This document shows positions 3 through 12,387 of a stretch of 64,000 bases of DNA, one piece after another. Each line of letters opens with the position of its first letter. The stretch's first letter is position 1. The notes under the pieces are model-generated. The model saw only the letters and a list, made by a program, of their open reading frames with translations. It was not told the DNA's origin and made no database searches. The stretch lies in assembly GCA_944372115.1 (NCBI GenBank), contig CALVYH010000001.1:62001-126000 (forward strand). The letters run 5' to 3'. The stretch comes from an uncultured Bacilli bacterium. GTDB taxonomy: Bacteria; Bacillota_I; Bacilli_A; RFN20; CAG-826. The position numbers were made by a program, and so were the translations under genes.

Positions 3-2690
3 TTTGAAAATAGTTATGAAATATCTCTTTTACCTAGAAAAATAACTTTTGAAGCGAAAGAAAGCATTGAATATGATGCTTTAAAACATAAATTTAACAA
101 TATCGATTTAATTGATGGTTCACTTTATAATTTAGATCGATATGAAATAGATGATTCAAATGAATTTATTGATGCAAAAGATTATAAACATAGTTTAAAA
201 ATAAACTTTTTTGATAATAAAAATCGTGATGTTTCTCGTTTTTATTCTTATTCTTTTAATGATGACTCATATTTAGAAATTACAAAACGAAATATTACCA
301 TTAAAACAAGTGATTTTACGAAAATTTATGATGGTAAAGCGAGTGAAAATAATACGAGTTTAACTATAAAAGAAGGCTCATTAGCTAGTGGAGATAAAAT
401 TGAATCTACCCTTCCTTTACATATTGATGCCGGGACTTATAAAAATCAACCAACGATTACTATAAGAAATAGTAAAGGAGAAGTTGTTAATAAAAACTAT
501 AATATTAAAATCGAAGCGGGTAATTATATAATTTCACCTCGTCCTTTAAAAATTATTTATAGATTTAGTGATAAAACATACGATGGAGATTACTATAATA
601 ATGTTGAAAATATTTATGAAGAAGGGATTTTAGAAGGACATCATATTTCTGCACACGTAAATCAAAATATGATGCATGTAGGAACTCATGGTTATGATTT
701 TGAAGTAAATGTTTATGATGATAATACATATGAAGAAGTGACAAAAAATTATGCAATTACTATTTCTTGCAATAATTATGAAGTTTATAAAAGAAAAATA
801 ACAATTGAAACTATCAGCGTTGATACTGGTTACACAGGTAAACCACAAGGTTTTCCAATGTATAAAGTTAGTAGTGGAACGCTAGCTGCAACTGATTCTT
901 TAGAATTAGTATCATATAGAAAAGAAACTAATATAGGTACATATGAAAATGAAGTTATTTTAAAAATTAACCATCAAGATGCTGGTGATGTAACTTTTGA
1001 TTATTATATTACTTATGATTATGGAACTTTTTCTATTTTAGAAAAAGTTGATAGCAATGAAGGAGATATTGATGTTAGCGAAGATCCAGAGTGGGATGGA
1101 TTTTTCGATACAGATTATGATTTTGGTGATGGGGGTGGTAATATTCCTACCGATGCCGAAGATAAAATAGAAGCAAATGATTCACTTGAATATGATGGCG
1201 GAGGAAATAGTTTTAATCAAAATTTAAATGAAGTAGTTTTAAAATATACTCCTACAAAATCTGGAAGTTCTTTCTTTAAATCAAGTTCTTTTGGTAGATA
1301 TAATGGAAAATCTTTTGAAGAAGCTCCTTTATATCAACCAAAATATGGAGTTAATCCTCAAGAATTTATTTCTATTTTATTAGAACAAAAAAATGCTAAA
1401 GAATTAGCTGGTAATTTAAATTATTATAAAGTTGCTTCAAGAACTTCTGATTTAGTTCCTTTATATCCTAAATTAAATAAAGAACAACAATTTGATGCAT
1501 ATAGCGTTATTTCGGATTTAAAAACTAAAGACATATTTGTTGAAGGGTATGATTTTGATTATTTAAAAAATCATTCCTTAATAGATAATGTAACTTTTAA
1601 TGATGAAAACGTAAGATTGGAAGAAGAAAATTATAGAGCATTTGTTGATGAGAATTATCGAGGTGTTGAATCAAAAACTTTTGATTTATTAAATGATTTT
1701 ATCGATAAAAAGGATTTAAGAACTTTTGATACGATTACTTTAGCAAATAAATTAATGAATTTATTTAAAAATGAATATTTTTATAGTACAAAAAATTTAG
1801 CAGCTGGAAACAGTTCTAATCCAATGATTACTTTTTTAACTCAAACAAAAATTGGAAAATGTGATTATTTTGCCGGTGCCGCTTCTTTAATTTTTAGAAT
1901 GAATGGAAAACCTTCAAGAGTAATAGGCGGATATTTAATTAATGGAGAAACTGTTGGAAAAACTTACGATGTAATTTTATTCCAAAAACACGCAATTACT
2001 GAAGTTTATATTGAAGGAAAAGGATGGGTTGGTTTTGATTTTACTGTTGCTCCACTTTTAGATGGAGAAGAAATTCCTCCAATTGATGGAAACAATGAAA
2101 ATGGAAGTGCTACTGGAGGCACCTCTTTAGAAGAAGGCGGAGATAGTGGAAATCAAGGTTCAGGAAGTGGAGAAAATCTGCCAAAAGAAATAATTAGTAT
2201 TTATACTGATTCAGCAACTTTTGAATATGATGGAAAAGAACATAGTTATGAAAAATATTCTATGGATGGAAATTTAAAAAATGGTGATGAATTATTTATT
2301 AATACATGGAGTAATATTTCTAAAGCAGGAAGTATAAAAAATGATATTCAAATCGAAATAAGAAATATGCAAAATCAGCCTTCAATTAATAACTATACAA
2401 TTAGGAAATATTTGGGTGATTTAACAATGCAAAAAAGAGATATTTATTTAACGACTGAAGATATTACAATTTCTTTAAGTGATTTAAAATCTTATACTGG
2501 AACTTTAAGTATCGAAAATTTAATAAATGGAGATTATATTTATAAAGGAATCCAACAAACTGCTAGTATTAAAAAACCAGGAATTTATAAAAATATTTTT
2601 ACTGTTCAAACAATAATTAACGATAAGGGAGAAGATGTTACAAATTGCTATAATATTCATTATATTTATGGAAATTTGACAGTTATTTAA
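3..2690 (+). CDS. Large surface repeat protein with transglutaminase-like domain (5' end outside window)
   Basis: The frame is open from base 3 to the TAA at 2688-2690 (895 visible residues) and reads through the first in-window ATG at 669, so the start lies upstream of the window. The N-terminal visible part carries Ig/YDG-type repeats of about 80 residues, with YDG at visible residues 109-111 and 193-195, each ending in an R/K-x-I-T-I-like strand; another repeat starts near 742. In the middle is a transglutaminase-like fold with Cys620 (KCDYFAG), His663 (FQKHAITE) and Asp679 (VGFDFT), a complete Cys-His-Asp triad. Gly/Asn/Asp-rich linkers flank it. There is no C-terminal LPXTG or membrane helix, so any anchor must be in the missing N-terminus. 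Extracellular location and crosslinking or protease activity are inferred. A strong terminator follows. Confidence 0.72.
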   Translation, partial: FENSYEISLLPRKITFEAKESIEYDALKHKFNNIDLIDGSLYNLDRYEIDDSNEFIDAKDYKHSLKINFFDNKNRDVSRFYSYSFNDDSYLEITKRNITIKTSDFTKIYDGKASENNTSLTIKEGSLASGDKIESTLPLHIDAGTYKNQPTITIRNSKGEVVNKNYNIKIEAGNYIISPRPLKIIYRFSDKTYDGDYYNNVENIYEEGILEGHHISAHVNQNMMHVGTHGYDFEVNVYDDNTYEEVTKNYAITISCNNYEVYKRKITIETISVDTGYTGKPQGFPMYKVSSGTLAATDSLELVSYRKETNIGTYENEVILKINHQDAGDVTFDYYITYDYGTFSILEKVDSNEGDIDVSEDPEWDGFFDTDYDFGDGGGNIPTDAEDKIEANDSLEYDGGGNSFNQNLNEVVLKYTPTKSGSSFFKSSSFGRYNGKSFEEAPLYQPKYGVNPQEFISILLEQKNAKELAGNLNYYKVASRTSDLVPLYPKLNKEQQFDAYSVISDLKTKDIFVEGYDFDYLKNHSLIDNVTFNDENVRLEEENYRAFVDENYRGVESKTFDLLNDFIDKKDLRTFDTITLANKLMNLFKNEYFYSTKNLAAGNSSNPMITFLTQTKIGKCDYFAGAASLIFRMNGKPSRVIGGYLINGETVGKTYDVILFQKHAITEVYIEGKGWVGFDFTVAPLLDGEEIPPIDGNNENGSATGGTSLEEGGDSGNQGSGSGENLPKEIISIYTDSATFEYDGKEHSYEKYSMDGNLKNGDELFINTWSNISKAGSIKNDIQIEIRNMQNQPSINNYTIRKYLGDLTMQKRDIYLTTEDITISLSDLKSYTGTLSIENLINGDYIYKGIQQTASIKKPGIYKNIFTVQTIINDKGEDVTNCYNIHYIYGNLTVI

Positions 2691-2696
2691 TAGTTC

Positions 2697-2738
2697 AAAA
2701 AGACAAAATTGTTAATAATAAACTAATTTTGTCTTTTT
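2697..2738 (+). terminator. Intrinsic terminator after the surface repeat protein
   Basis: Perfect 14-bp inverted repeat, 2697-2710 against 2725-2738, with a 14-nt loop. The 3' arm ends in a T run. It is A-rich on the other side and could also stop transcription from the opposite strand. Confidence 0.8.
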
Positions 2739-2816
2739 CTTAGTTTAATTGATTAACTTTATATTGTATTTCCTTAAAATAAATTTAGATTCGTAAATTG
2801 AAAGGAGGAAATTGTA

Positions 2817-4685
2817 ATGAAAGCGAAACAAATATTAGACCCACTAGATAAATATAACGAAACGTTTTCCAAAACCATAATTAAAAATTCAAACGATTAT
2901 TTTGAAGATTTAGTTAAAAAATCTGGAATTGACGTTGAGAAAAATAAACATTTAGTTGCGGAATATGATGAACTTTTAAAACAATATCATGAAGCTTCAT
3001 CAAAAGGTAGCAATACCGATTTATTAAAGAAGTTATGTTTATTTGGTGGAATTGCACTTATAGCACTAGGAATAATTCTTTGCTTCTTTTGTGGAGGTAC
3101 TAGTGGAGGAGCTTTAGCTGGATTAATTGTTTTTATTATTTTATTTTTTCTTTTAGGTATTGGAGGTTTACTTGGATATTTTCTATATTTCAAGCAATTG
3201 TCTGAATTACTTAACAGAAAAACAGAAGAACTTAAAAATAAAAAAGATGAGAAACTTGAAGAATGCTATGAATCAATTGATGCATTAAATGAACATTTTG
3301 ATTATGATATGCCTCAAGAAATATTTAATAAAACTTTGGATATTATTAATTTTGATAAAAATTTTGACTTGCAAAAATATTTATACGTAAAAGATAAATA
3401 TAATTATCAAAAATCAGATAATGTTGATGAAAGTTTAATATATGTAATGAGCGGTGACATTCAAGGAAATCCATTTCTAGTTGAAAAATATTTAGAAAAA
3501 GAAATGGTTAATGTACCTTATTCTGGTGAATTAGTTGTTAAATGGACAACATATGATAGTGATAATCATGCACATAATCACAAAGAAAAATTAACGGCAA
3601 CAATTTATAAGCCAGCTCCAAATTATTATGGTGTTACTCAATTACGTTATTTTAATGATGCTGGAAATCAATTATCATTTTCAAGAAAGCCGGTCGTTGA
3701 TAAAAACTGGTCAGAAAAAGATATTGAATCATATGTAAAAAAATATACAAAACAAGCGCAAAAAATTGCTAAAAAAGAGTTAAAAGATGGTTCTATAAAT
3801 TCCTATACTCATATGAATAATGATACTTTTGAAGCTTTATTCGGTGCTATAAATCGTGATAATGAGCATGAATTTAGATTGCTCTTTACTCCATTAGCAC
3901 AAAATAATATTGTAAAACTTGTTAAAGATAAAAAATTTTTTGGCGATGATTTCAGTTTTGACAAGAGCAAAGGAATAAACACAATTATTAGTGAACATTC
4001 CCAAAAGGTTAATTATGATTTATGCCCTAATGATTTCAAAACCTACTCTTATCAAATTGCAAAAGAAAATTTTGTTAATTTAATTTCTAAAGCTTTTGAT
4101 TCAATATATTTTGATTTTGCGCCATTGCTTTCCATTCCTTTATATCAACAGCTCAAAAATAAAGATTTTGTAAATGGGGAATTTCCAAGCAACTATAATC
4201 CAATGGTACATGAATGTTTAGCAAATGCAATGGATCCATCATATTTTATTCACAAAGAAGCAACAACAAGCCAAATCTTAAAAACTAGATTTGTTTCCAA
4301 AGATAATTTAGCAGATAGACTTGAAGTTGATTCATATTCTTTTAAAGGGGTAGAAAGAGTGGAATATGTTACCAAACGTTGTTCAGACGGAAATTATTAT
4401 GATGTTCCGGTTCATTGGATTGAATATTTACCATTAGTTAATAAAAAAACTATTGAAGTTAAGAATATGGGGCACACTTATCCTGATTTCTGTTCACTTG
4501 TTTCAAATAATAAACATTTTGATGAAATTATTGGTGACCGAAACTATTTTATTTATAGAGGATTTTTGCTTTTCCCATTAGATAATTATAGTTACGATGA
4601 AAATCTTGATAATAAACTAACTGAATTTTTCAAAAATTCGAATTTAAATTCGAATATTAATACGAATATAAACAAAACAAATTAA
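2817..4685 (+). CDS. Membrane protein of unknown function, upstream of lemA
   Basis: 622 residues, strong Shine-Dalgarno AAAGGAGG at 2801-2808. I do not recognise a family. Two hydrophobic segments lie near residues 73-92 and 98-125 (Gly/Ile/Leu rich, with a Cys-Phe-Phe-Cys stretch at the end of the first). They are preceded by a helical N-terminus and followed by a short charged coiled coil. The long C-terminal part (about 150-600) is soluble, rich in Asn/Asp/Lys, and contains a beta-rich stretch with a His cluster (HAHNHKEK). The tail is low complexity (Asn/Ser/Thr). It is 23 bases before lemA, with its own ribosome site for each gene. LemA genes are often paired with large membrane proteins, so a joint membrane role is plausible but unproven. 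Confidence 0.7.
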   Translation: MKAKQILDPLDKYNETFSKTIIKNSNDYFEDLVKKSGIDVEKNKHLVAEYDELLKQYHEASSKGSNTDLLKKLCLFGGIALIALGIILCFFCGGTSGGALAGLIVFIILFFLLGIGGLLGYFLYFKQLSELLNRKTEELKNKKDEKLEECYESIDALNEHFDYDMPQEIFNKTLDIINFDKNFDLQKYLYVKDKYNYQKSDNVDESLIYVMSGDIQGNPFLVEKYLEKEMVNVPYSGELVVKWTTYDSDNHAHNHKEKLTATIYKPAPNYYGVTQLRYFNDAGNQLSFSRKPVVDKNWSEKDIESYVKKYTKQAQKIAKKELKDGSINSYTHMNNDTFEALFGAINRDNEHEFRLLFTPLAQNNIVKLVKDKKFFGDDFSFDKSKGINTIISEHSQKVNYDLCPNDFKTYSYQIAKENFVNLISKAFDSIYFDFAPLLSIPLYQQLKNKDFVNGEFPSNYNPMVHECLANAMDPSYFIHKEATTSQILKTRFVSKDNLADRLEVDSYSFKGVERVEYVTKRCSDGNYYDVPVHWIEYLPLVNKKTIEVKNMGHTYPDFCSLVSNNKHFDEIIGDRNYFIYRGFLLFPLDNYSYDENLDNKLTEFFKNSNLNSNINTNINKTN

Positions 4686-4708: not shown

Positions 4709-5377
4709 ATGTCAGTACAATTAGACGAAGTTAATGGACCAGTAAAAGAAGAAGGAAATCAAACAAATGTTATTCAACAAAAAATTCCTATTACCGTTGG
4801 TAAAGGGTCCCTAATTTTTGAAATCTTGTTATGGGTTTTAGGAATTATTCCAGGAATTGTGTTTTTATTCATGAAAATTGGTGCGCAAAACCATTTTGAA
4901 CAATTACAACAACAAATTCAAGCTAGCGCTTCTCAAATTGATAACTTCTTAGTTCAAAAAGACACAATTTTAAGAAATTGTGCAAAACTTTTGGATAAAT
5001 CTGTTGATTTAGATAAAGAAACAATGGTTAAAATTGCTGAAGCAAGAGGCGGAAATAGACTTAGTGACGAAGATAGAAATGAAGTTTATGCGAAGTTAGA
5101 TAGTGTTCAAAATGCAATTAATGTAGCTTTTGAAAATTATCCAAATTTAGAAGCACATCATACCATTCAAGAAGCAATGGATAAAGCCGATTATTTATCT
5201 AGAGAAATTACAGCTGCACGAGAACTTTATAATGATAAAATCTTACAACGGAACACAGATATATTTAAATGGCCAACAAATCAAATTGTTGCAGCGAAAA
5301 ATAAATATACAACAAGAATTCCATTCTCGGCATCACAAGAAGTTAAAAAAAGAGCTGATGAAGAAACTTATTTTTAA
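4709..5377 (+). CDS. lemA: LemA family membrane protein
   Basis: 222 residues with ribosome site AAAGGAGA. One membrane helix at about residues 33-55 (IFEILLWVLGIIPGIVFLFM) is followed by a long all-helical bundle, and the C-terminal half carries the LemA-like signature: an A-R-E-L-Y-N-D stretch followed by F-K-W-P-x-N-x-I-V-A. In LemA proteins a short N-terminus lies outside, one helix crosses the membrane and the helical bundle follows; the molecular function is unknown. The N-terminal tail here (about 30 residues) is longer than usual. It sits between an unknown membrane protein and a YccF protein, a small membrane-protein group. Confidence 0.85.
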   Translation: MSVQLDEVNGPVKEEGNQTNVIQQKIPITVGKGSLIFEILLWVLGIIPGIVFLFMKIGAQNHFEQLQQQIQASASQIDNFLVQKDTILRNCAKLLDKSVDLDKETMVKIAEARGGNRLSDEDRNEVYAKLDSVQNAINVAFENYPNLEAHHTIQEAMDKADYLSREITAARELYNDKILQRNTDIFKWPTNQIVAAKNKYTTRIPFSASQEVKKRADEETYF

Positions 5378-5414: not shown

Positions 5415-5789
5415 ATGAAAACATTAGGCAACATTTTATGGATCATTTTTGGTGGTCTTTTATGGGCAATAGGATTATTTATTACAGGTATTTTCCTTTG
5501 TTGTTCAATTATTTTTATTCCTGTAGGTATTCAATATTTTAAACTTGCAGGTTTTGTTTTTTGTCCTTTTGGAAAAACAGTTGAAAAAATCGATAATAAT
5601 GTTTTAAAAAAGATTATCAATTTTTTATGGGCAGTACTTTTAGGATGGGAAAGTGCTTTAATGATGCTTCTTACAGGAGCAATCCTTTGCATTACAATTA
5701 TAGGTATCCCTTTTGGAAAACAATATTTTAAAATGGCAAAATTTGTCCTTCTCCCATTAGGAAGAAAATTTCTTAAAGAAAGCAAATAG
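5415..5789 (+). CDS. yccF: YccF domain inner-membrane protein
   Basis: 124 residues, ribosome site GAGAGG. It consists of two tandem copies of the YccF unit: a hydrophobic hairpin followed by an I-P-x-G-x-Q-Y-F-K-x-A-x-F-x-x-x-P-G-like stretch, seen at about 36-55 (IPVGIQYFKLAGFVFCPFG) and again at 95-118 (IPFGKQYFKMAKFVLLPLG). Four membrane segments are expected. The family has no established biochemical role. It is the last gene before a strong hairpin terminator and probably belongs to the same transcript as lemA. Confidence 0.85.
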   Translation: MKTLGNILWIIFGGLLWAIGLFITGIFLCCSIIFIPVGIQYFKLAGFVFCPFGKTVEKIDNNVLKKIINFLWAVLLGWESALMMLLTGAILCITIIGIPFGKQYFKMAKFVLLPLGRKFLKESK

Positions 5790-5821: not shown

Positions 5822-5872
5822 AATTAAAGAGATATAACAAAATTTTAAAAAAATAGTTATATCTCTTTAATT
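5822..5872 (+). terminator. Intrinsic terminator after yccF
   Basis: Perfect 17-bp inverted repeat, 5822-5838 against 5856-5872, with a 17-nt A/T loop. Base composition would allow function in both directions. Confidence 0.75.
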
Positions 5873-5932: not shown

Positions 5933-7924
5933 ATGAATCTAAGTTATGGTAATTTTATAAAAGAAAGAAGAAAAAAGTTAAATTTAACTCAAAAAGATTT
6001 AGCTAATGTCTTAAAAGTTAGTATTCAACAAATTTCTAAATATGAAAAAGATATTTCTAAAATAGATGTTTCTTTAATATCTACTTTTTGCAAAATTTTA
6101 AAAATAGATTTAAAAGATTTTTTAATTAAAAATATTAATTCACCTTTAAAAGAAGATTTTGAGGATTCTTTTTTAAATTTTGATGTTTCAAAATTTAAAA
6201 AAGGAATGTCTTATTATCGATTAAAAAATAATTATACTTTTATTGATTTAGAAGAAAGAGTAAATATTAATAAAAATAGGTTATCATCATTTGAAAGAAA
6301 TGGTTCTTTACCTACTATTGAAGAATTTAAAATAATCGCTGATTTATATAATCTTGATTATTTAACATTTTATTATGGATATGATGAAACTGAAGAAAAT
6401 TTATATATTAAAGATAAAGAAAATAAAATAAATAATAAAAAAAGAATTGAAGAATTTAAAATCAGTAAAAATGATTTTAAAGATATTTTTAAAAATAAAA
6501 AAGTTTTATCTGTTATTCTTTTACTTTTTATTTTTGTTTTAACTAGTTCGATTTCTTTACCTTTAATTTTATCTTCTTCTAATAATAGTCAAATTAATGA
6601 TGATATAAGTAATAATGAAGAGGAAGATAATAAAAATCCATCTAATCCAAGTGGAGATAAAGAAGAAAATGGCAATAATAATGATAATAATAAACCATCT
6701 ATTGATGATAAACCAAATGAAGGTGAAGATGATAAGCCTTTAGAAGATAATAACGAAGAAGATAAATTAGATTTAGAATCTTTAGATGAGTTAGCTAAAA
6801 ACTTTTATTTCGTTATTTCATCAAAAAAAGAGATAACTATTACTGGATTTAAAAAAGATGATGAAACAATTATAATTCCTGGAAAAGCAGGTTCTTATAT
6901 AGTTAAAAAAATTGAATATAGCTCAAATTCATCATTTTTATCTTGTAAAAAAATTATAATTGAAGAAGGCTTAGTTGAAATTGGGAAAAATGCTTTTGGA
7001 GTCTGTTCAAATTTAGAATATTTATCATTACCTTCAACATTAGCAAGAATTGATGAAGAAGCTTTTCATACAAATCCAAATTTAAAAGAAGTGGTTTTTC
7101 CAAACGGTAATGAAAATTTTACTTTTATTAATAATTCCATTTGTTCTAAAGATGGTAAAGATTTAATACTTTGTTTAGAAAAAAGAGAAGAAATTTCAAT
7201 TTATTATGTTCCTGAAGGAATTGAAACTATAAAAACTCATGCTTTTGTTGGAAACAATAATTTAAAAGAAATTTATTTACCAGAGAGTGTTAAAAATATT
7301 GAAACTTTAGCAATTATGGATTGCTATAATCTTGAAAAACTTCATTTAAATAATACGATAAGTGAATTAAAAGAAAGAGTGATATGCGGATCAAATAATT
7401 TAAAAGAATTTTATATTCCTAAAAATATTAAGAAGATAAATAACTCTCCTATAATTTCTTGTTATCAATTTGGTGGCTATAAAGTCGATAAAGACAATGA
7501 ATATTTTAAAGATATTGATGGAAGTTTATATTCAAAAGATGGAACTATTCTTTATTCTTTTAAAAATTCTTCATTAAATCAAATTATTCATATTAAAGAA
7601 GGAGTTAAAAAAATATTAAAACTTGCGATAAATTTTATTTTAGATGATTGTGAATATATCATCTTACCATCAACTTTAGAATTTTTAAATGAAGATGCAA
7701 TTTTTAATAACCCAATGTTAAAAGGAATTATCATTTTAAACGGTGCTAAAGGCTTACAAAGTAAGTCAATCGGTGGTTGCGAAAATAGTTCCGTTTATTT
7801 AGAAAGTGAAAAATTACCTGCAAATAGTAGTTTAGCTTTTTTTGATCGAGAAAATGCTAATCAAAAAATTTATTATGCTGATAGTTGGGAGTATGTAAAT
7901 GGTTTTCCTGAACCTTTAATTTAA
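5933..7924 (+). CDS. XRE-type DNA-binding / membrane / BspA-like LRR protein, copy 1
   Basis: 663 residues. Residues about 5-62 form an XRE helix-turn-helix (GNFIKERRKKLNLTQKDLAN, then VSIQQISKYEK). A second, more degenerate XRE-like domain covers about 84-145 (LEERVNINKNRLSSFE). A single membrane helix lies at about 190-214. Residues 215-285 are an Asn/Asp/Glu-rich, flexible linker, and about 290-663 is a BspA-type leucine-rich region with repeats of the form I-x-x-x-A-F-x-x-x-x-x-L-x-x-x-x-L-P (for example near 350-385). Expected topology is DNA-binding end inside, LRR end outside. There is no signal peptide or ribosome site, and a -10-like box lies 8 bases before the ATG. A paralogue follows after 6 bases. 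Role inferred: direct surface sensing coupled to transcription. Confidence 0.85.
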   Translation: MNLSYGNFIKERRKKLNLTQKDLANVLKVSIQQISKYEKDISKIDVSLISTFCKILKIDLKDFLIKNINSPLKEDFEDSFLNFDVSKFKKGMSYYRLKNNYTFIDLEERVNINKNRLSSFERNGSLPTIEEFKIIADLYNLDYLTFYYGYDETEENLYIKDKENKINNKKRIEEFKISKNDFKDIFKNKKVLSVILLLFIFVLTSSISLPLILSSSNNSQINDDISNNEEEDNKNPSNPSGDKEENGNNNDNNKPSIDDKPNEGEDDKPLEDNNEEDKLDLESLDELAKNFYFVISSKKEITITGFKKDDETIIIPGKAGSYIVKKIEYSSNSSFLSCKKIIIEEGLVEIGKNAFGVCSNLEYLSLPSTLARIDEEAFHTNPNLKEVVFPNGNENFTFINNSICSKDGKDLILCLEKREEISIYYVPEGIETIKTHAFVGNNNLKEIYLPESVKNIETLAIMDCYNLEKLHLNNTISELKERVICGSNNLKEFYIPKNIKKINNSPIISCYQFGGYKVDKDNEYFKDIDGSLYSKDGTILYSFKNSSLNQIIHIKEGVKKILKLAINFILDDCEYIILPSTLEFLNEDAIFNNPMLKGIIILNGAKGLQSKSIGGCENSSVYLESEKLPANSSLAFFDRENANQKIYYADSWEYVNGFPEPLI

Positions 7925-7930
7925 CTTTTT

Positions 7931-9865
7931 ATGGAAAAAAAAGAAATCAATTTAACATATGGTGAATTTATTAAAAAAAGGAGAATTGAGTTAAATCTTT
8001 TACAAATTGATTTAGCATCTTTTTTAAATGTTACTCCTCAAACAATTTCAAAATATGAAAATGATGAATGTGATGTTAGTTTTGATTTAATAGGAAAACT
8101 ATGTAAAATCTTAAAAATTGATGTTAGTAGTTATTTTTATAAAATTAATTCATATGAAAATAAATTAGCCGAAAAATATGGTTTTGATATTAAAAAATTC
8201 ACTTTTAATTTAAAGAATATTAGGAATGAATTACATATAAAACAACAATCTTTAATTGAAAAAGTTAATATTTCATCTTCTCGATATTCAAATATTGAAA
8301 ATGGGAAAAGTTTACCTACCTATGATGAATTTTTAAAACTAGCAACTTTTTTTAATTTAAAAATAGATTATTTTTATTTCGGTTTAAATCAAACCGAAAT
8401 AATTGTTAATGAACTTAATAATAAGAAAGTTGATAATAAGGGAAATTTTTTAAAAAACAAAAATTTAAATTTAATTTTATCTCTTTCTGTTGTTATAAAT
8501 TTAATTTTAGCTATTTCTTTATTAGCAATTATTATTCCAACTGTTAAAAATAATTCTAATGATAATTTAATAGTTGATGATGATAACATTGGAGAAAATA
8601 ATAATCAAGATAACGAAAATAATAACGATGATAATATTTTTAACGATAATGAAGAAAACAATAAACCAAGTGATGAAGAGTTAAATGATAAATATAATGA
8701 TCCTATGATTAACGAAGAAGAACTTTCTAATTTCATTTTTACTTTAAATGAAGATGGATATCATTTAATCTCTTATAAAGGAAGAGAAAAAAATATAACT
8801 ATTCCTTCAATTATTAATAATAAAAAAGTAAGTGTTATTGAATCTTATTGTTTTGCAAATAATTCGCTTATTGAATCGATAAGTTTATCTGAAAATATTT
8901 ATTATATTGAAACTAATGCTTTTTATAATTTATCTTCTTTAAAAACATTAACTTTAAATAGTAATATCGAAACAATAGAAGAAGGTTTTTTAATTAATAC
9001 TCCTTCATTAACTCTTATTAAATTTGATAATGAAAATAATAGTAATGATAAATATAAAATTATTGATAATAGTATTTTTTCATTTGATGAAAAAATACTT
9101 TATTATGCTTTTTTAAATATTAATAATGTATATAAAATAAGAAAAGATATAGAAATAATTGCTTCATATGCATTTAATTGTTCTAATACGATAAAAAATA
9201 TTGATTTTAGCGAAGCAAATTCTTTAAAAACAATAAGTTCTTATTCATTTTTTAAACTTACTAATATAGAAAAATTAACTTTAAATAATAATATTTTAAA
9301 AATTGAAGAAGATGCTTTTTATGATTTAGTTAATTTAAAAGAGCTATATCTACCTTCACTATTAAAAGAAATAGATGGTAATATTATTTCTTATTCTTCA
9401 TTATCTTATTCTTATTTAAATCTTTATTTAGCTGGTAACAATAACTATTTTGAAATTTTTGATAATTCTTTATATTCAAAAGGAAAAAAGATACTTTATA
9501 CATTTATACCTTTAAAAGATATTAGTATTTATACTTTTCCTTCATCCTTAAAAGAAATAACTTCATATTCGATTAATTTAATTAATAATACTTTAAAAGG
9601 TATTGTTTTACCTTCTTCAATCAGAAATATTAATAAATACGCAATATGTGGAAATAAATCTATTGAATTTGTTATTTTAAAAGATGGAATAAGTGGATTA
9701 AATGATTATTCATTTTATTTTAATGATAATATGAATTTATATTTTGAAACTAATAAATCACCTATAAATAGTAGTGATATTTATTCTTTTAAAAGTGGAA
9801 ATAGTTATTTTAAAAATGAATGGTATTTATCAAGTGATAATATTCCAATTTTAAAAGAAAATTAG
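7931..9865 (+). CDS. XRE-type DNA-binding / membrane / BspA-like LRR protein, copy 2
   Basis: 644 residues with the same order as its neighbour: XRE domain at about 9-66 (FIKKRRIELNLLQIDLASFL, then VTPQTISKYEN), a second XRE-like domain at about 88-150 (SSRYSNIENGKSLPT), one membrane helix at about 180-205, an Asn/Asp linker to about 260, then leucine-rich repeats to the end. The ATG comes 6 bases after the first copy's stop with no Shine-Dalgarno, so expression probably depends on the upstream gene. The two copies are alike in layout but clearly diverged in sequence, most in linker and LRR, which suggests an old duplication with different ligands or operators. Ligand and target are unknown. 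Confidence 0.85.
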   Translation: MEKKEINLTYGEFIKKRRIELNLLQIDLASFLNVTPQTISKYENDECDVSFDLIGKLCKILKIDVSSYFYKINSYENKLAEKYGFDIKKFTFNLKNIRNELHIKQQSLIEKVNISSSRYSNIENGKSLPTYDEFLKLATFFNLKIDYFYFGLNQTEIIVNELNNKKVDNKGNFLKNKNLNLILSLSVVINLILAISLLAIIIPTVKNNSNDNLIVDDDNIGENNNQDNENNNDDNIFNDNEENNKPSDEELNDKYNDPMINEEELSNFIFTLNEDGYHLISYKGREKNITIPSIINNKKVSVIESYCFANNSLIESISLSENIYYIETNAFYNLSSLKTLTLNSNIETIEEGFLINTPSLTLIKFDNENNSNDKYKIIDNSIFSFDEKILYYAFLNINNVYKIRKDIEIIASYAFNCSNTIKNIDFSEANSLKTISSYSFFKLTNIEKLTLNNNILKIEEDAFYDLVNLKELYLPSLLKEIDGNIISYSSLSYSYLNLYLAGNNNYFEIFDNSLYSKGKKILYTFIPLKDISIYTFPSSLKEITSYSINLINNTLKGIVLPSSIRNINKYAICGNKSIEFVILKDGISGLNDYSFYFNDNMNLYFETNKSPINSSDIYSFKSGNSYFKNEWYLSSDNIPILKEN

Positions 9866-9938: not shown

Positions 9939-11171
9939 ATGGATATAACAGTTGCAGCCGTAGAAATTAAAAATACATCTTTTAAATTATTAATCGGTTA
10001 TTTATATGATAATAAAATTAATGTTCTTTATAAAAGAACATATCCTTTAAGAGTCTCTAATAAAGATGGGGACATTTTTGATTTAACTTCTTTAAGTGAA
10101 GATTTAAAGCAAATTAAAGTAATTTCTGATCCAAAAAAGAGATTAAGAGTTGATATTAATGAAGTAGTCTTAATTCTTCCTCCTTTTGGACTTAAAGTTT
10201 TTTCTAATGAAAAAACTACTAATACAATTTCTAGTGATGGAAGAATTGCTAAAATTGATATCGCAAATGCTTTAAGTATGATTAAAAAAGCAAGAACTAA
10301 TGAACCTAACGATGAAATTGTTGATATTATTCCTTATGTTTTTTCACTTGAAGGAAACAGGGTTTATAAAGATCCACCATTAGGATATTTTTCAAATTCA
10401 CTTTTAGTAAGTGCTCATATTTTTACACTTCCTAAAGTAATGGTTGAAAACTTTAAAAAAGCAATTAGTGATGCTGGAATTTTAATTAAAAGAGTAGTTA
10501 TTGCTCCTTTAGGAGTAAATTCTCTTTTAGAAATTAACAAATCATCTTTTGATAAATATTTACTTGTTGATTATAACAAAGATAACACAACTGTTTCTTT
10601 TTTTGGAAACGGAAGACTTTATGATTCAACTTCATTCCCAAATGGGGGAAATGATATAACTAACGCTATTGCTAATTCTTTTGAAATTTCAATGGATAAA
10701 GCTGAAGAATTAAAGATAATTTACGGACATGATTTAAGAGAAACAAAATTTAATGCTCCAATTTTATCAGTTTTAGGTGATGATGGAATTAAAAGAAAAT
10801 ATAATAAGAACGAACTTGTTCAAGTTGTTGATGAATGTTTAAATAACTGGGATAAATTATTTACAAACTCGATAAATTATTTACTTAAAGACTATGGAAA
10901 TTTAAAAGAGGATATTCCTTTAGTATTTATTGGAAACGGAACTTTACTTAATGGTTTTAAAGAATTTGTCAATCGTTTACATTCTTCTAATCCAATTAAA
11001 TTCTTTACTAACGATTCAATTGGCGCTTTAGAACCTGGTGATATTAACCTTCTTGGTGCGATTGCCTTTACTTCTGTATATAAAGGTTCTTTAGAAGATG
11101 AAACAAAAATCGATATTAAACCTATTGAAAGAAAGGTTGATGAATATCGAGAAGATGAAGATGAATTATAA
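9939..11171 (+). CDS. ftsA: FtsA-like cell-division protein (divergent)
   Basis: 410 residues from ATG 9939. This start puts VAAVEIKNTSFKLLIG in register with the first phosphate motif of FtsA, and the promoter above supports it. The actin/SHS2 fold is recognisable: the middle YLLVDYNKDNTTVSFFGNG matches the second phosphate motif, then FPNGGNDIT, and late FIGNGTLLNGFKEF matches the adenosine motif. Several usual Asp/Gly positions are changed (VEIKNTS where L-D-I-G-T-S is usual; DYNKDNTT where D-I-G-G-G-T-T is usual). The C-terminus ends in an acidic tail (EYREDEDEL) with no amphipathic membrane-targeting helix. It lies 52 bases before ftsZ, the usual partner, which FtsA tethers to the membrane and builds into the division ring. 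Confidence 0.85.
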   Translation: MDITVAAVEIKNTSFKLLIGYLYDNKINVLYKRTYPLRVSNKDGDIFDLTSLSEDLKQIKVISDPKKRLRVDINEVVLILPPFGLKVFSNEKTTNTISSDGRIAKIDIANALSMIKKARTNEPNDEIVDIIPYVFSLEGNRVYKDPPLGYFSNSLLVSAHIFTLPKVMVENFKKAISDAGILIKRVVIAPLGVNSLLEINKSSFDKYLLVDYNKDNTTVSFFGNGRLYDSTSFPNGGNDITNAIANSFEISMDKAEELKIIYGHDLRETKFNAPILSVLGDDGIKRKYNKNELVQVVDECLNNWDKLFTNSINYLLKDYGNLKEDIPLVFIGNGTLLNGFKEFVNRLHSSNPIKFFTNDSIGALEPGDINLLGAIAFTSVYKGSLEDETKIDIKPIERKVDEYREDEDEL

Positions 11172-11223: not shown

Positions 11224-12387
11224 ATGATTGATACACATGAATTAGATGGGTTTGAACCTGTAGCAAGAATTATTGTTATAGGTGTTGGCGGAGCTGGAAA
11301 TAACTCCGTTAATAGAATGATTGATGAAGACATTAGAAATGTCGAGTTTTATGTCGCAAATACTGATAAGCAAGCTTTATCTTTATCAAAAGCTCCAAAT
11401 AGAATTATTTTAGGAGAAAATGTCACTGGTGGACTTGGTGTTGGAGGAGATCCTATTGCTGGAAAAGAAGCTGCTGAAGCTTCAAGTGAAGATATTCGTG
11501 AAATAGTTAGAGGCGCTAATATGGTCTTTATTGCTGCTGGAATGGGTGGTGGAACTGGAACTGGTGCTGCACCTGTTATTTCTAGAATTGCAAAAGAAGA
11601 AGGCGCTTTAACTGTTGCTATTGTTACTCGTCCATTTACTTTTGAAGGTAGGAAAAAGGTTGAAGCTAGTGTTCAAGGATTAAATGAATTAAGAGAAAAT
11701 TGTGATTCATTAATCGTTGTTTCTAATGATAAATTATTGATGAGTAGTGGCAATCTTCCAGTAGGAGAAGCATTCTCATTAGCTGATGATGTTTTAGCAA
11801 AAAGTGTAAAAACAGTTACTGATTTAATTTTAATGCCTTCATTTATCAACCTTGATTTTGCTGATGTTAAGGCAACTTTAAAAGATAGTGGCGTTGCTTT
11901 AATTGGTTTTGGTAGCGGACAAGGAGCAAATAATGCTATTGAAGCAGCTGAAAATGCTTTATCTTGTCCATTAATTGAACAATCAATTGATGGTGCTCAA
12001 AAAGCATTATGCCATATTACATGTGGACCAAGAGTTTCTCTTTTAGATTGTCAAACATGTGTTGACCATATGGTTTATAGTTGTGGAGGAAACCTTGATT
12101 TAAAATTTGGTATTAGTGTAAATGATCAACTTGATGATCAAATCATGGTTTCAATTATTGCTGGAGACTTTAATACTGAATTTGATTTCTCTGTTAATCC
12201 AGGTACTAAACTTGATTTATCAGCATTAAGAGAAGAAAAAGAAAGACAACAACAAATGCTTTTTGAAAAGAGTGTTGAACAATCTAAACTTAAAGCTGAT
12301 GAAAGAAATAAAGAAGAAGCAGCAAATAAAGAAAAGGAAGAAGAAGATTCAATTATTCCTGAATTCTTAAATGATACTGATTTTTAA
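11224..12387 (+). CDS. ftsZ: Cell-division GTPase FtsZ
   Basis: 387 residues. Tubulin-like GTPase that polymerises into the division ring. Visible motifs are GVGGAGNNSVNRM at the N-terminus, the GTP-binding signature GGGTGTG at 108-114, and the T7-loop-like NLDFADVKATL with its catalytic Asp. After the core there is a Lys/Glu-rich linker and a C-terminal peptide IPEFLNDTDF that matches the conserved I-P-x-F-L tail used to bind FtsA, SepF or ZapA. The start follows an AAGCGAGGA-like site. A terminator follows directly. Length is normal. Confidence 0.97.
   Translation: MIDTHELDGFEPVARIIVIGVGGAGNNSVNRMIDEDIRNVEFYVANTDKQALSLSKAPNRIILGENVTGGLGVGGDPIAGKEAAEASSEDIREIVRGANMVFIAAGMGGGTGTGAAPVISRIAKEEGALTVAIVTRPFTFEGRKKVEASVQGLNELRENCDSLIVVSNDKLLMSSGNLPVGEAFSLADDVLAKSVKTVTDLILMPSFINLDFADVKATLKDSGVALIGFGSGQGANNAIEAAENALSCPLIEQSIDGAQKALCHITCGPRVSLLDCQTCVDHMVYSCGGNLDLKFGISVNDQLDDQIMVSIIAGDFNTEFDFSVNPGTKLDLSALREEKERQQQMLFEKSVEQSKLKADERNKEEAANKEKEEEDSIIPEFLNDTDF

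Follow-up and report, generated by a model that had tools for sequence, protein, structure and literature searches.

The window analysed here is a 64,000-nucleotide stretch of contig CALVYH010000001.1 (assembly GCA_944372115.1, positions 62,001 to 126,000) from an uncultured Bacilli bacterium. It contains two adjacent genes, here called p1 and p2, whose products each join two XRE domains to a BspA-type leucine-rich repeat (LRR) ectodomain through one membrane helix. In our view, each product probably acts as a one-component transcription regulator that spans the membrane once and belongs to a modular family, in which the LRR sensing part is exchangeable. The family is well supported as a modular form of the transmembrane transcription regulators (TTRs), and the function of p1 and p2 would follow by homology with its other members.

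Both genes lie on the forward strand with a gap of 6 bp and probably form one operon. The p1 gene (5933..7924) encodes 663 amino acids and was characterised from its open reading frame, Pfam matches and an alignment with 9 relatives; p2 (7931..9865), characterised from its open reading frame and Pfam matches, encodes 644 amino acids and its product is 35% identical to that of p1. In p1, XRE domain 1 covers residues 6-62 (5948..6118; best HTH_3 stretch 9-62, with the invariant residues) and XRE domain 2 about residues 92-147 (6206..6373; HTH_3 and the relatives' alignment), followed by a transmembrane helix at residues 185-203 (6485..6541; hydropathy) and the LRR ectodomain at about residues 289-653 (6797..7891; LRR_5, fold match and alignment). 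In p2, XRE domains 1 and 2 occupy residues 10-70 (7958..8140) and 94-148 (8210..8374), both from HTH_3 and AlphaFold2. They are followed by the transmembrane helix at residues 184-202 (8480..8536; hydropathy and AlphaFold2), a disordered Asn/Asp-rich linker at residues 203-259 (8537..8707) and the LRR ectodomain at residues 266-640 (8726..9850; LRR_5, AlphaFold2 and fold search). Two HTH_3 stretches per protein (E 1.6e-19 in p1 and 1.7e-23 in p2) and LRR_5 (E 2.1e-24 and 5.8e-26) were all above the Pfam cut-off. In XRE domain 1, R13, Q20, Q32, S35 and E38 are invariant in an alignment of 19 diverse family members, and the canonical helix-turn-helix (HTH) residues are present, namely the Arg-Glu pair and Gln at the starts of helices 2 and 3. 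PADLOC returned only matches of a generic XRE kind, such as HTH_VI and RmrA.

Topology was assigned from hydropathy and AlphaFold. Exactly one membrane segment was found in each protein (p1 185-203, p2 184-202); it is preceded by a Lys-rich stretch and followed by an Asn/Asp/Glu-rich stretch, which suggests an orientation with the N-terminus inside and the C-terminus outside. Neither an N-terminal secretion signal nor a lipobox was found in p1 or p2, as the N-terminus is the XRE domain and the sole hydrophobic segment is internal. For p2, an alignment of 14 rows yielded an AlphaFold2 model (mean predicted local distance difference test (pLDDT) score 79) with XRE bundles at residues 10-70 and 79-150, a helix at 154-201 that spans the membrane, disorder at 200-259 (pLDDT <50) and a confident LRR solenoid from residue 266 to the C-terminal end. 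Besides hydropathy, the modelled helix at residues 173-201 indicates the transmembrane region of p2. A fold search of the PDB returned the BspA-type LRR proteins 4gt6, 4cp6 and 4h09 for the ectodomain and XRE proteins such as C.BclI for the bundles. The layout given in a preliminary description of this DNA, with two XRE domains, one helix, a linker and a leucine-rich C-terminus in each of the two frames, was thus confirmed by Pfam, hydropathy and the p2 model, including its assignment of the HTH regions to XRE and its single membrane helix.

The two XRE domains form a conserved tandem module of ~150 amino acids with fixed spacing, hereafter XX. When searched with a profile (A3) covering both XRE domains and the helix, 62 of 279 genomes from the order had XX, representing 15 of 56 genera; in a sample of 395 genomes from across the class, 26 had it, and several of the weaker matches there are single-XRE or soluble proteins. 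The profile matches p1 at E 6.5e-64 and p2 at E 3.0e-67, values that are partly due to construction since both proteins are rows of A3. XX is followed by very different outer parts, labelled by eye unless supported by Pfam. The BspA LRR occurs in the window's genus, and other genera, as well as a different family of the class (L227, L228), have InlB-like repeats with LRR. Other XX proteins carry DUF6273 (L139 and L141 by Pfam; L142 and L146-L149 by similar tail sequence), Cys/His-rich repeats (L140, L150, L172), an InlB/GLUG-like ectodomain (L143, L145, L165), immunoglobulin-like tails (L157, L160, L161, L164, L167), short Ser-rich tails (L168-L170, L173, L174) or several helices (L158). Soluble XX proteins of 158-174 amino acids have no further part. 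A maximum-likelihood tree of 54 XX domains requires 17 ectodomain changes; counted on well-supported branches, the LRR label changed at least 4 times. Receptors are expected to show such a pattern, with the outer part swapped repeatedly while the reader stays constant.

Some further features of these outer parts were recorded. Locus L171 encodes tandem double-XRE membrane proteins (1061-2188 and 2190-3353, reverse strand) with an M23 peptidase ectodomain of SpoIIQ-like similarity. The short-tailed proteins of L045/L169, L168, L170, L173 and L174 share a C-terminal extracellular motif resembling PPxIxxIxI, and some short-tailed XX genes adjoin large lipoprotein or surface genes.

The window genome (1.25 Mb, 24 contigs, 96% complete) encodes four full XRE-XRE-TM-LRR proteins (TM, transmembrane helix): p1, p2 and two paralogues, located on contig C8 (L001:7954-9693, forward strand) and contig C4 (L002:7918-9666, reverse strand). 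The architecture was found in 8 of 26 species of the genus, and stops or frameshifts disrupt two of the loci. The same domain order therefore recurs in related genomes, as the preliminary description had suggested looking for. The named public-genome loci with this architecture are metagenome assemblies labelled 'uncultured Bacilli' or 'Firmicutes'. The sister species G013 carries both p1 and p2, with the large domains 86-93% identical and ratios of nonsynonymous to synonymous substitution rates (dN/dS) of 0.06-0.30 in the XRE domains and 0.13-0.21 in the ectodomain; this conservation excludes a chance origin. Across the informative ortholog pairs nearest the window, dN/dS was 0.06-0.30 in XRE domain 1 and 0.13-0.36 in the ectodomain; the G002/G023 pair was left unjudged because its sequences are too close. 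Judged by these ratios, all large parts of p1 and p2 are under purifying selection, and XRE domain 1 is among the most constrained. Host-driven diversifying selection on the LRR was considered and rejected, since dN/dS was well below 1 in most comparisons. Among the neighbours of these genes, a lipoprotein with a serpin domain lies immediately upstream of an XX-TM-LRR gene in L043 (4449-5783, forward strand). Downstream of the C8 paralogue, three genes recur in several species (L001:9721-13631); they encode an unknown 508-amino-acid protein, a protein with 4 helices and a lipoprotein carrying InlB-like repeats.

In relatives, XX genes are accompanied by a partner gene. Many XX-TM loci contain a small neighbouring gene of varying orientation whose product of ~72 amino acids is a predicted winged helix (AlphaFold2, pLDDT 95); examples are L149:8091-8369 and L014:2307-2528, both on the forward strand, and some 30 further loci. 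Its nearest profiles are HTH_11 (E about 1e-3) and, at E-values of 2e-5 and 5e-7 that did not pass the cut-off, the N-terminal part of the AcpB/EbpR/MafR family. Genomes usually have one or two copies of the gene. Of 37 strong winged-helix matches in 60 whole genomes, 32 lay within 5 kb of an XX gene, with ~1% expected by chance.

A conserved dyad was also found in the promoters of relatives. One conserved block, CTATC-N7-GATAG, emerged when three promoter regions lying between divergent pairs of XX and Big_2 lipoprotein genes were aligned. The motif was thus derived from XX loci, and its independent support consists of six further loci that had no part in motif discovery, a spacer control and its absence elsewhere. 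Scanning of 558 kb of XX loci gave 12 sites at spacer 7 and 0-1 at every other spacer from 0 to 13. Across 28 whole genomes, all 6 sites of the strict form CTATCA-N5-TGATAG are at XX loci, and the loose form is near background in the same genomes (44 sites vs 25 for a reversed control). In one clade the fuller form is ACTATCA-N5-TGATAGT (for example L148:7352-7370, L152:3667 and 6069, and L151:2056 and 4537), within a general geometry of xxxCA-N5-TGxxx; other clades keep the N5 geometry with arms GTATCA, CATCA, AATCTCA, TGACA or TGTCA. The dyads lie ~24-150 bp upstream of the start codons of lipoprotein, winged-helix or XX genes. With the strict form confined to XX loci in the genomes searched, the pattern points to local regulation in the relatives.

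These results are consistent with the following mechanism. The two XRE domains of XX would bind DNA inside the cell, the single helix would anchor p1 and p2 with the N-terminus inside and the C-terminus outside, and the LRR ectodomain would serve as an exchangeable sensor. The target in relatives appears to be local, with the dyad, which XX would read, at the XX gene, the winged-helix gene and neighbouring lipoprotein genes. By homology, ligand binding by the LRR would be passed across the membrane, and p1 and p2 would then adjust a few envelope or surface genes from there; the candidates for such genes are the p1/p2 operon itself and the LemA/YccF/transglutaminase/AAA island around it. The one-component receptor proposed in the preliminary description is therefore supported in part, namely for the family, in which XX and the helix occur with many unrelated ectodomains and dyads lie in relatives' promoters, and it would extend to p1 and p2 by homology. 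A fuller version can be proposed tentatively, with somewhat less confidence than we would give an even chance: an undescribed module of gut Bacilli consisting of a tandem-XRE receptor with a swapped ectodomain, a 72-amino-acid winged helix, a lipoprotein gene and one palindromic operator; the BspA-LRR forms would be a branch from which the partner has gone, acting alone or as the p1/p2 pair.

Several observations weigh against regulation of this kind by p1 and p2. The strongest functional evidence sits in relatives, not in the window pair. The winged-helix gene was not found in the window genome or in the whole genomes of the genus's other LRR species, nor was the N5 dyad found near the XX genes of the window genome or of own-genus LRR species, with the exception of one weak match with 5-bp arms in L039. 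The conserved operators and neighbours to which the preliminary description directed attention thus exist in relatives and are missing at p1/p2, and because the pair has neither, its role, including DNA binding by p1 and p2 themselves, is inferred by homology. In the own-genus LRR proteins, the recognition helix of XRE domain 2 does not begin with Gln, and the net charge of the XRE domains is mixed (-1 in XRE domain 1 of p2). The XX-TM-LRR function is dispensable, because complete genes are missing in most species of the genus and two loci are broken. At the window locus, a perfect 17-bp inverted repeat with a 17-bp spacer (5822..5872) ends 60 bp upstream of the p1 start. G013 has it conserved; it is its own sole exact match in the genome, and its score was reached in 0 of 100 shuffles. 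The repeat also folds as an RNA hairpin (z -2.5), so it is possibly an operator of p1/p2 or possibly a terminator of the upstream yccF gene. A shared operator for the own-genus LRR clade was considered and rejected, as none was found; a 25-bp palindrome at the C8 paralogue, GTCTTTTTATTA-N-TAATAAAAAGAC, lies just after a TATAAT box in two species, but its score is matched by 7-11% of shuffles.

The dyad could also be read by the winged-helix protein instead of XX. On that account, which we hold to be unlikely though it deserves some weight, the operator belongs to the winged-helix protein, and XX-TM is a membrane partner that sequesters or releases it, with another role where the winged helix has been lost, as in the own-genus LRR clade. 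The tight linkage of the two genes, the high-confidence fold prediction and the presence of dyads before the winged-helix gene itself fit this account, whereas G194 (an 88% complete genome) has XX and the dyad with no winged-helix gene detected. Moreover, the dyad arms differ among XX clades that also differ in the XRE domain 1 recognition helix, and own-genus XX-TM-LRR proteins keep the XRE domain 1 residues without a partner. It is rather unlikely that the LRR is mainly a surface adhesin whose XRE end represses its own operon as the protein accumulates in the membrane, with no ligand sensing. BspA-type LRRs are mostly surface adhesins, the PDB matches of the ectodomain are cell-surface proteins, and several relatives carry the dyad at the XX genes' own promoters; but XX-TM is also joined to very short tails and unrelated folds, and the dyad also precedes separate lipoprotein genes, so signal input is favoured. 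A third account, in which the ectodomain triggers proteolysis and the XX part is freed as a soluble regulator, appears improbable. The soluble XX proteins of the family indicate that XX can work without a membrane anchor, and the linker is disordered, yet neither a cleavage site nor a protease partner was identified, in an analysis that did not test for them.

The genes around the pair bear on a role in cell division, in which the XRE end, like that of RodZ, would bind a protein of the cytoskeleton or of division instead of DNA, and p1/p2 would form part of the ftsA-ftsZ machinery. The p1/p2 layout of HTH, membrane helix and outer domain is RodZ-like, and the genes for FtsA (9939..11171, forward strand, likely ATG start at 9939) and FtsZ (11224-12387) lie directly downstream. 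However, the RodZ_C domain (DUF4115) was not found in p1/p2 or elsewhere in the genome, and the sole genome match to the MreB profile is a 627-amino-acid, DnaK-sized frame (70 bits) that is probably DnaK; a RodZ-like role was therefore rejected, as both RodZ_C and a genuine MreB are missing from the genome. The canonical XRE residues are also kept. The order mraZ-mraW-ftsL-ftsA, with no p1/p2, was found in 14 other species of the genus; one more shows ftsL alone, at the end of a contig, and another has a different order and no p1/p2. In the window species and, by synteny, in G013, a ~15 kb island closed by p1/p2 (L231:2095-17501 plus window 5933-9865) parts ftsL from ftsA. It encodes a four-helix LRR protein, two AAA proteins, two transglutaminase-domain proteins, a protein with a domain of unknown function (DUF), LemA, YccF, p1 and p2. 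As the insertion is limited to these two species, the adjacency to ftsA/ftsZ is, on gene order, an accident of insertion; a division role drawn from it was rejected, and the division account as a whole is highly improbable. In the window, the island genes upstream of the YccF family membrane protein (5415..5789, forward strand) include LemA (4709-5377), the DUF protein (2817-4685) and a transglutaminase protein. In another genus, a soluble double-XRE gene is divergent from yccF (L175:4944-5992 and L051:7441-8462); in the window, p1 comes after yccF.

Gut Bacilli of this kind are uncultured, have genomes of ~1.2 Mb and are hard to study, and their environmental sensing is largely open. A constant XX reader with exchanged outer domains offers a testable link from an ectodomain, including the BspA LRR usually seen as an adhesin, to a DNA site. 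A predicted operator whose strict form occurs only at XX loci in the genomes searched makes the action of a single-pass membrane transcription factor simply testable. If the proposal is true, the module represents a one-protein alternative to two-component systems, with the sensor swapped by recombination.

The pair had been put forward as a candidate undescribed system. It is not an undescribed kind of system, because the combination of a DNA-binding domain, a membrane helix and an outer part is already known as TTRs, for example ToxR, CadC and TcpP (Demey et al. 2023, PMC10269533). What stands of that claim is narrower: no description of the double-XRE family, the winged-helix partner or the dyad, and nothing relevant to the double-XRE/LRR architecture, was found in the literature searched, which mostly excluded subscription journals. 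The TTR survey reports the single-pass form as the commonest (56%), with ~57% lacking another recognisable domain, and some TTRs act with a co-encoded partner; its main text does not mention XRE or HTH_3, and leucine appears in a reference title only (PMC10269533). Like TTRs, p1 and p2 join a DNA-binding domain and a membrane helix in one polypeptide. Unlike the TTRs surveyed, the XX family has an N-terminal tandem XRE and large ectodomains (BspA LRR, M23, DUF6273), and relatives of p1/p2 have a linked winged-helix gene.

BcrR of Enterococcus faecalis has an XRE-type HTH, several membrane helices and no large ectodomain. It is a one-component transmembrane regulator of bcrAB (PMC3968067) and, according to the passage citing it in PMC13384398, has no DNA affinity once its membrane domain is missing; HigX is a further precedent for a membrane-tethered one-component regulator (PMC13384398). 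BcrR responds to a signal from outside the cell and regulates an adjacent operon, and p1 and p2 resemble it in the membrane-tethered HTH, but they have two XRE domains, one helix and a large ectodomain. The window genome also encodes single-XRE proteins with two or three membrane helices (L003:5987-6853 and L004:3705-4232), which are nearer BcrR in layout. In their LRR ectodomain, p1 and p2 resemble BspA-type surface proteins (4gt6, 4cp6/PcpA, 4h09); those proteins are secreted or anchored, whereas in p1 and p2 the LRR forms the outer half of a protein whose XRE domains lie inside.

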